Source: Methylococcaceae bacterium (lineage in GTDB: Bacteria > Pseudomonadota > Gammaproteobacteria > Methylococcales > Methylomonadaceae). Taken from it: DNA of 6,841 nucleotides. How positions within the stretch are numbered: the first letter of the stretch is position 1; the number at the start of each line of letters is the position of its first letter. The notes under the pieces were generated by a model, which did not search any database, had not been told where the DNA came from, and worked only from the letters and a program-made list of their open reading frames with translations. The stretch covers positions 1 through 6,841 of the forward strand of contig RFQK01000085.1 of NCBI GenBank assembly GCA_009925045.1. The letters run 5' to 3'. The position numbers and the translations under genes were made by a program. Below, piece by piece: positions 3,255 to 5,608 of the stretch.

Positions 3255-4007
3255 TTATAGTGTGGTTTCAATCAAAGGACTGGATTTAACAGCCTTATCG
3301 AGGGTTTTTAAAACTTCTAATAATTCTTTCATTCTGTGCAAAGGCCAAGAATTAGGGCCATCGCTTAATGCTTCTTCAGGTCTGGGGTGGGTTTCCATGA
3401 ACAGACCAGCAATACCGACAGAGACCGCTGCTCTTGATAAAACCGGCACAAATTCACGCTGTCCACCAGAACAATTGCCCTGACCACCCGGTAACTGCAC
3501 TGAATGCGTGGCATCAAACACCACAGGACAGCCAGTATCACGCATCACGGCAAGAGATCGCATATCTGAAACAAGGTTATTATAACCAAACGAGACCCCA
3601 CGCTCGCAAACCATGATTTGCTCATTACCGGTCGCTTTGGCTTTGTTGGCGACATTGGCCATATCCCAAGGCGCTAAAAATTGACCTTTTTTGATGTTAA
3701 CCGGTTTGCCCAAAGCAGCAACGCTTTGAATAAAATTGGTCTGACGGCACAAAAATGCTGGAGTCTGTAAAACATCGACGACTGAAGCAACTTCAGCCAG
3801 AGGTGTATCTTCATGAACATCGGTTAAAACCGGCACATTCAGTTGTTGTTTGACGGTTTCCAGAATTTGCAGGCCTTTTTCCAGACCAGGACCGCGAAAA
3901 CTACCCAGTGAGGAACGATTGGCTTTATCGAAAGAAGACTTGTAAATAAAATTGATGTTGAGTTCATCGGTGATTTCTTTCAACCGACCCGCTACATCCA
4001 AAGTCAT
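3255..4007 (-). CDS. kdsA: 3-deoxy-8-phosphooctulonate synthase KdsA, N-terminally truncated reading frame
   Basis: KdsA condenses PEP with arabinose 5-phosphate to Kdo 8-phosphate for lipopolysaccharide. Recognisable parts are [12 protein letters not shown] (22-33), FRGPGLEKG (37-45), LTDVHED (61-67), [12 protein letters not shown] (81-92), [13 protein letters not shown] (104-116), [19 protein letters not shown] (134-152), [12 protein letters not shown] (164-175), and GLFMETHP (201-208) followed by SDGPN (215-219). His168, Glu205 and Asp216 match metal ligands of the metal-dependent class. The frame has only 250 residues, against roughly 275-285 in the family. The ATG overlaps the pyrG stop (ATGA, 4004-4007), and the protein would lack the first barrel strand with the conserved AGPCVIES cysteine ligand. 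That motif is encoded in frame just upstream but is preceded by a stop. Arg209 also replaces the usual acid in HP(D/E)P. Identity is sure; function of this copy is doubtful. Confidence 0.9.
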
Positions 4008-5608
4008 TTGTTCGCTTTCAATAACGCAAGTTCCGGCGAATTACGAGGGGTTGAAGTAAACTCCGGATGGAACTGGCAAGCCAGGAACCATGGGTGATCA
4101 GGCAGTTCAACAATCTCGACCAGCCGACCATCCAGGGATTTACCAGAAAAGCGCATACCGGCTTTTTCAAGTTGCTTTAAATATTGATTATTAAATTCAT
4201 AGCGATGACGATGGCGTTCAGTGATGACATCTTTTTGATAGAGTGCAAAGGCTAATGAATCGGCTTTCAGCTGACATTTCTGAGCACCCAGACGCATGGT
4301 ACCGCCCAAATCAGAATCTTCATCACGTAAATTGATCGTACCTTCTTCATCCATCCATTCGGTAATTAAGCCAATCACAGGATGAGGTGATTTCGGTAAA
4401 AACTCTGTACTGTGAGCACCTTCGAGACCAACCACATCGCGGGCAAACTCAATCACAGCAGACTGCATACCCAAACAAATACCGAGGTAAGGAATTTTAT
4501 TTTCACGAGCAAAACGTACTGTCGAGATTTTCCCCTCTACACCCCGCTCACCAAAACCACCGGGAACCAGAATGGCATCCACATCCCGCAGTTCATTGGT
4601 ACCCTCGGCTTCGATAGTTTCGGAGTCGATGTATTTGATAGTCACTTTATGACGGGTATGAATACCGGCATGAATTAATGCTTCATTGAGCGATTTATAC
4701 GCGTCAGTGTGATCAACATATTTGCCTACAATGGCGATTTTTACGACATCTGTGGGGTGAGTTAAGCCCTCAACCACTTTTTCCCATTCACTGAGATCTG
4801 CAGGCGGAACGTCGAGACGCAATTGATCAACGACAATGTCATCGAGCCCTTGCTCACGCAGCAACAGTGGAATCCTGTAAATGGTATCGGCATCAATAGC
4901 CGATATCACTGCTTTCTCAGGCACATTGGTAAATAAAGCGATCTTACGTCTGTCACTCGCTGGAATCGGTTGTTCAGAACGACAAATCAAAATGTCTGGC
5001 TGAATACCAATCGTTCTTAATTCTTTAACAGAGTGCTGAGTTGGCTTGGTTTTCAGTTCACCCGCTGATTTGATGTAAGGCACCAGCGTCAGATGAATAA
5101 ACAATGCCCGATCACGCCCTAACTCAACACCCATCTGCCGTATCGTTTCCAGAAACGGCAATGACTCAATATCACCAACAGTCCCACCAACCTCAATCAG
5201 CGCTACATCGTGCCCTTCTGCACTCGCAAACACTCTGCGTTTGATTTCATCGGTGATATGCGGAATAACTTGCACGGTAGCGCCCAGATATTCACCTTTA
5301 CGCTCATTCCGCAATACCTGTTCATAGACCTGACCAGTGGTGAAGTTATTCTTCTTGGTCATGGTGTTTTTCAGGAAGCGTTCATAGTGCCCTAAATCCA
5401 GATCTGTTTCCGCACCGTCTTCGGTGACAAAAACCTCACCGTGCTGAAAGGGACTCATGGTACCTGGATCAACGTTTATGTAGGGATCGAGCTTAGTGAT
5501 GGTGACTTTTAGGCCTCGATCTTCCAGAATCGCTGCCAGAGAGGAAGCCGCAATGCCTTTCCCTAATGAGGAAACAACACCGCCGGTAATAAAGATAAAT
5601 TTTGTCAT
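4004..5608 (-). CDS. pyrG: CTP synthase PyrG (glutamine-hydrolysing), with atypical C-terminal tail
   Basis: PyrG makes CTP from UTP, ATP and glutamine-derived ammonia. The synthetase domain spans about 1-265, with the P-loop-like [10 protein letters not shown] (9-18), [20 protein letters not shown] (41-60), Asp71/Asp72 and Glu140 as likely magnesium ligands, and the KTKPTQHSV loop (186-194). The class I glutamine amidotransferase domain (about 287-522) shows PGGFGERG (349-356), nucleophile Cys378 in GICLGMQ, and His514/Glu516 in FHPEFTSTP. The catalytic sets are complete. The protein has 534 residues against 545 in E. coli. After STPR the usual DGHPLF... tail is missing and 12 unrelated residues ([12 protein letters not shown]) follow, mostly overlapping kdsA-like DNA in another frame. 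The start is fixed by the conserved [17 protein letters not shown]. It is first in the minus-strand cluster. Confidence 0.97.
4008..4040 (-). pseudogene. Severed 5' coding remnant of kdsA inside the pyrG 3' end
   Basis: In the kdsA frame the eleven codons before its ATG read [11 protein letters not shown], which continues directly into [12 protein letters not shown]. This matches the conserved KdsA N-terminus (LIAGPCVIES...), with Pro replaced by Thr. A TAA at 4041-4043 closes the frame, and no ATG, GTG or TTG occurs between that stop and the ATG at 4007. The same bases are read in another frame as the last residues of PyrG. The remnant is therefore either lost KdsA coding sequence or evidence of a sequence error. 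Confidence 0.75.

Follow-up and report, generated by a model that had tools for sequence, protein, structure and literature searches.

Metal-dependent KDO8P synthase (KdsA) has a cysteine that acts as a metal ligand and defines this form of the enzyme (PMC3052366). In Methylomonas and its relatives kdsA belongs to a pyrG-kdsA-eno neighbourhood, as in loci L032 and L270 (contig C55 of genome G003), and the named relatives of the present work are Methylomonas and other Methylococcales, by which the host is judged to be a methanotroph resembling Methylomonas. The DNA analysed here, hereafter the window, is a stretch of 6,841 nucleotides that forms contig C462 of draft genome G000 (2.0 Mb, 478 contigs, 83% complete, 0.61% contamination). 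It has the same gene set, order and strand as the normal neighbourhood, and best-segment protein identity to G003 is 94% for KdsA and 96% for PyrG; however, among the loci examined the window alone lacks 111 bp that span the end of pyrG, the spacer and the head of kdsA.

The pyrG-kdsA border in the window and in relatives

On its plus strand the window encodes trpS, and its minus strand has pyrG, kdsA, eno, ftsB, ispD and ispF as well as one edge of truD; the names are our reading of the proteins, with the main ones supported by searches. The complete genes other than pyrG and kdsA look whole: all 14 relatives compared match eno over residues 1-426 of 427, and the matches to G003 cover residues 1-157 of 157 for ispF, 1-230 of 231 for ispD, 1-336 of 338 for trpS and 6-95 of 98 for ftsB.

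The pyrG gene for CTP synthase (4004..5608, minus strand) is an open reading frame of 534 residues that is normal up to ...FTSTPRN, after which the last 20 or so codons are replaced by a tail of 11 foreign residues. The kdsA frame (3255..4007, minus strand), as read from its ATG at 4007-4005, encodes 250 residues and is without residues 1-27 of the normal 277-residue protein. A remnant of the kdsA head (4008..4040, minus strand) continues the frame upstream of this inner ATG with the codons TTC GCC GGA ACT TGC GTT ATT GAA AGC GAA CAA and has no start codon; it is preceded by a TAA at 4043-4041, and the interval from this stop to the kdsA ATG holds no in-frame ATG, GTG or TTG. The new pyrG TGA overlaps the inner kdsA ATG in an ATGA (4004..4007, read 4007-4004 on the minus strand), and a third frame at 4053-4039 (minus strand) reads QPLVI. 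The initial annotation had described the upstream first-strand motif, the TAA, the lack of a start between them and the third-frame QPLVI in these terms, and the sequence bears it out.

Base-by-base placement of the window against its flanks in G003 gives one best split position, after 4039, with 111 bp gone, so that the junction lies at 4039..4040; alignment with 10 relatives likewise shows one missing block. This agrees with the earlier proposal that one small deletion took away the end of pyrG together with the spacer and the head of kdsA. No microhomology was seen at the window junction against G003, and the suggestion that the break used a short shared CAACCCCT-like repeat finds no support in the relatives aligned, against which the window is pyrG through the AAT codon.

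To place this border in context we examined 111 loci, of which two are the window itself and six, whose stretch contains no pyrG, were left out of the count; the 103 that were counted include some genomes taken twice, from two collections. In all 103 the PyrG match ends 108-2010 bp before the inner KdsA methionine, compared with 0 bp in the window, and all 103 encode a normal KdsA head, from the methionine through the AG(P/T/S)C motif. The comparison with close relatives that the initial annotation had asked for returns the normal arrangement in all of these loci. Because the best split against G003 is a single position and these 103 loci keep their spacing, the pyrG-kdsA join is not a matter of chance. 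A genus-wide search matched KdsA residues 1-277 in 35 of 37 genomes; the match in G000 covers residues 17-277, and that in G050 breaks off where its contig ends.

The encoded enzymes and their intact counterparts

The cysteine codon of the first-strand motif (4028-4026, minus strand) precedes the sole start codon of the usual kind and has no in-frame start ahead of it. A KdsA translated as written would be without the metal-binding cysteine of the metal-dependent enzyme. The first barrel strand would also be missing from it, and the earlier statement that a protein starting at 4007 has neither feature holds. Among solved relatives, the alignment begins at KdsA residue 1 for 6mdy and 3tml and at residue 13 for the Aquifex structure 1fwn. 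The KdsA of the window reads SDGP near its C-terminus (within 3255-4007, minus strand) alongside the metal-type cysteine motif, as do P0002-P0012; at this place PMC3052366 names CysAspGlyPro as a highly conserved motif.

PyrG departs from its conserved C-terminus at the same junction, as the initial annotation had noted. Its match to the CTP synthase P0122 covers residues 1-526 of 545 and does not reach the C-terminal end of a full-length enzyme, while the alignment of P0122 with solved CTP synthases, 1s1m among them, extends to its residue 540; judged by these alignments, the truncated PyrG would miss an end that solved enzymes keep. When the region with the new tail (residues 490-534) was searched, none of the best 120 of 6243 rows covered more than 84% of it; these rows are cluster representatives, inside whose clusters further members may hide matches.

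The remainder of KdsA is that of the family, with a PF00793 match over the cut-off. In a search of 5.8 billion proteins, all 250 of its residues are identical to those of P0002 (two contigs) and P0003 (six contigs), two proteins of 277 residues in which 27 normal residues precede the identical stretch; P0004 (three contigs, 277 residues) is identical at 249 of 250 positions. This degree of identity suggests that P0002 and P0003 come from the same species as the window, and their source could be a sister strain. Among the 120 KdsA relatives listed, 115 have 277-279 residues, and we rejected the inner methionine as a natural start on this count. P0100 has 253 residues, and P0018 and P0071 (256 residues) begin within the motif without a start codon and are probably edge pieces. 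P0045 and P0102, of 250 residues, are annotated from the same inner methionine on contigs of 2342 and 1167 bp; their short forms may be edge or start-call effects.

Comparable losses across the draft genome

We compared 83 of the 478 contigs of G000 (577 kb; chosen by number and not at random, three of them only in part and six all N) with 1.036 Mb of G003; 152 kb aligned by blastn. Of 57 adjacent collinear anchor pairs, 42 differ in spacing by at least 40 bp, with G000 the shorter in 36. Several of the losses fall in or between conserved genes: 188 bp in gyrB, 161 bp in atpA, 193 bp in recR, 176 bp in dnaX, 671 bp at galU and its neighbour, and 108 bp at uppS and cdsA. Those in gyrB and atpA are sharp. 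Base-by-base placement of 10 junctions fixed seven within two bases; L242, L215 and L165 are looser, and the losses at L242 and L165, being multiples of three, might be natural. Sharp losses were recorded at L201:2163, L239:2820, L157:3005-3041 and 3907-3917, L209:12159, L232:17647 and L171:4672 (gyrB, atpA, recR, dnaX, galU with its neighbour, and two others). At L215:3024-4616 (minus strand) a 530-residue frame starts as UppS and runs on as the next gene, which is CdsA-like; in G003 these are two genes. A 502-residue frame at L195:1177-2685 (plus strand) has a partial match in G003 with a 2-kb shortfall beside it, and looks like another fused frame.

The controls for this comparison were a reverse look-up and genus-wide searches. 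The forward test used 81 conserved G003 genes that do not overlap one another and fall well within G000 contigs; 23 of them were flagged by any criterion and 17 by an internal gap, a frame change or C-terminal loss in G000; the reverse look-up flagged 14 of 81 by any criterion and four by the stricter ones, two of the four (L167 and L195) being G000 frames that look fused. Two of the 17 strict flags sit at the same place in L133, one (C8 263515) was flagged in both directions, and one is probably a paralogue effect; natural divergence therefore contributes to these counts. Across the genus, among the matches listed, 32 of 37 genomes have a full-length AtpA; G009 gave no match, G016 and G043 gave distant homologues only, and G052 gave a piece. 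DnaX is full length in 33 (one open frame with two matched parts in G013, a contig-edge piece in G050, no close match in G009) and RecR in 35 (none in G009). In G000 each of the three is split on a single contig into two pieces that are offset and lie in different frames, a state found in no other genome of these searches among the matches listed.

The contigs of G000 also carry a length signature. Within the set of 83, which includes the window, 57 differ in length by at most 1 from a multiple of 30, where 8.3 are expected (binomial p ~1.6e-37); for G003 the figure is 4 of 20, with 2 expected. The window itself measures 228 x 30 + 1. This clustering suggests that the assembly, or its post-processing, included an unusual step. 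We also considered whether the junctions fall on a 30-base grid, and the 10 that were placed showed no clustering; since they lie off such a grid, the signature alone does not explain the cuts.

Origin of the join

We are highly confident, from the sequence comparisons above, that the pyrG-kdsA join is an assembly artefact, in which 111 bp were probably lost in contig building from an organism likely to have two normal, separate genes. This reading, which the initial annotation had offered as its last option, is favoured because intact KdsA proteins identical over 250 residues exist and because comparable cuts are found in other, unrelated core genes of the same assembly. It is not credible that a cell would have gyrB, atpA, dnaX, pyrG and kdsA broken all at once; this and the existence of an identical KdsA with a normal start make it very probable that the join came from assembly. 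We infer that the losses arose in contig building. Our best guess is that neighbouring contig ends were joined directly across short gaps that had not been assembled, a step that would leave sharp losses of the observed size. On the other side, six of the 42 spacing differences run the other way, the reverse look-up flags 14 of 81 genes against 23 of 81 forward, and a small, possibly reduced genome could carry some real deletions.

A genuine 111-bp deletion, carried by the strain or by a minority of the population, would leave PyrG with an exchanged tail and KdsA truncated and probably inactive. Both remaining frames are open, the junction is clean, and the overlap of the pyrG stop with the kdsA ATG would permit coupled translation; against this stand the identical intact proteins P0002 and P0003 and the breaks in gyrB, atpA, dnaX and recR in the same draft. 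Joint breakage of these four genes is not expected to be tolerated by a living cell. Nor did searches of G000 reveal a backup, as the initial annotation had envisaged for kdsA: they gave one kdsA and one pyrG, although at 83% completeness the absence of a second copy is no proof. Its only other PF00793 protein, on contig C62, was considered as a second kdsA and set aside, since the KdsA search did not report it; we take it to be a DAHP synthase. We also looked for the missing piece elsewhere in G000, and apart from the window junction the corresponding G003 stretch gave 12 matches, all short (14-24 bases) and with chance-level E-values of 0.036 to 5.3. We consider a genuine deletion very unlikely.

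Further removed is a working novel arrangement, in which either a functional truncated KdsA is translated from the inner methionine or ribosomal frameshifting produces a PyrG-KdsA fusion. The ATGA overlap and the annotation of P0045 and P0102 from the same methionine are consistent with it; however, the truncated KdsA would have neither the first strand nor the metal-binding cysteine that defines the metal form (PMC3052366), and the two short proteins come from short contigs, against a length of 277-279 residues in 115 of the 120 relatives listed. On inspection, no obvious slippery heptamer was seen. We regard this arrangement as extremely improbable, and give hardly any credence to its combination with a real deletion, in which a KdsA without first strand and cysteine would be made by ATGA-coupled translation behind a new-tailed PyrG with both enzymes working. 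An extra base at about 4038, also raised in the initial annotation, is refuted as the sole cause by the difference in length: QPLVI does resemble the QPLFLI of P0002, but 111 bp are absent against G003, with the end of PyrG, the spacer and the greater part of the KdsA head, and the stretch reads in frame as PyrG TSTPRN.

Taken together, these data call for caution and do not amount to a discovery. Fusions, truncations and gene losses in G000 should not be accepted as they stand, and its scores for completeness (83%) and contamination (0.61%) fail to reveal the problem; missing lipopolysaccharide (LPS), ATP-synthase or replication functions inferred from this draft would be misleading. The closest described counterparts are the metagenomic misassemblies of the class addressed by metaMIC (PMC9661791), in which, as in the window, stretches that lie apart in the organism are joined in one contig; in the window the intervening sequence is lost as well. 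G000 is set apart from such misassemblies by losses that are many, sharp and of tens to hundreds of bp, and by the clustering of its contig sizes at multiples of 30.
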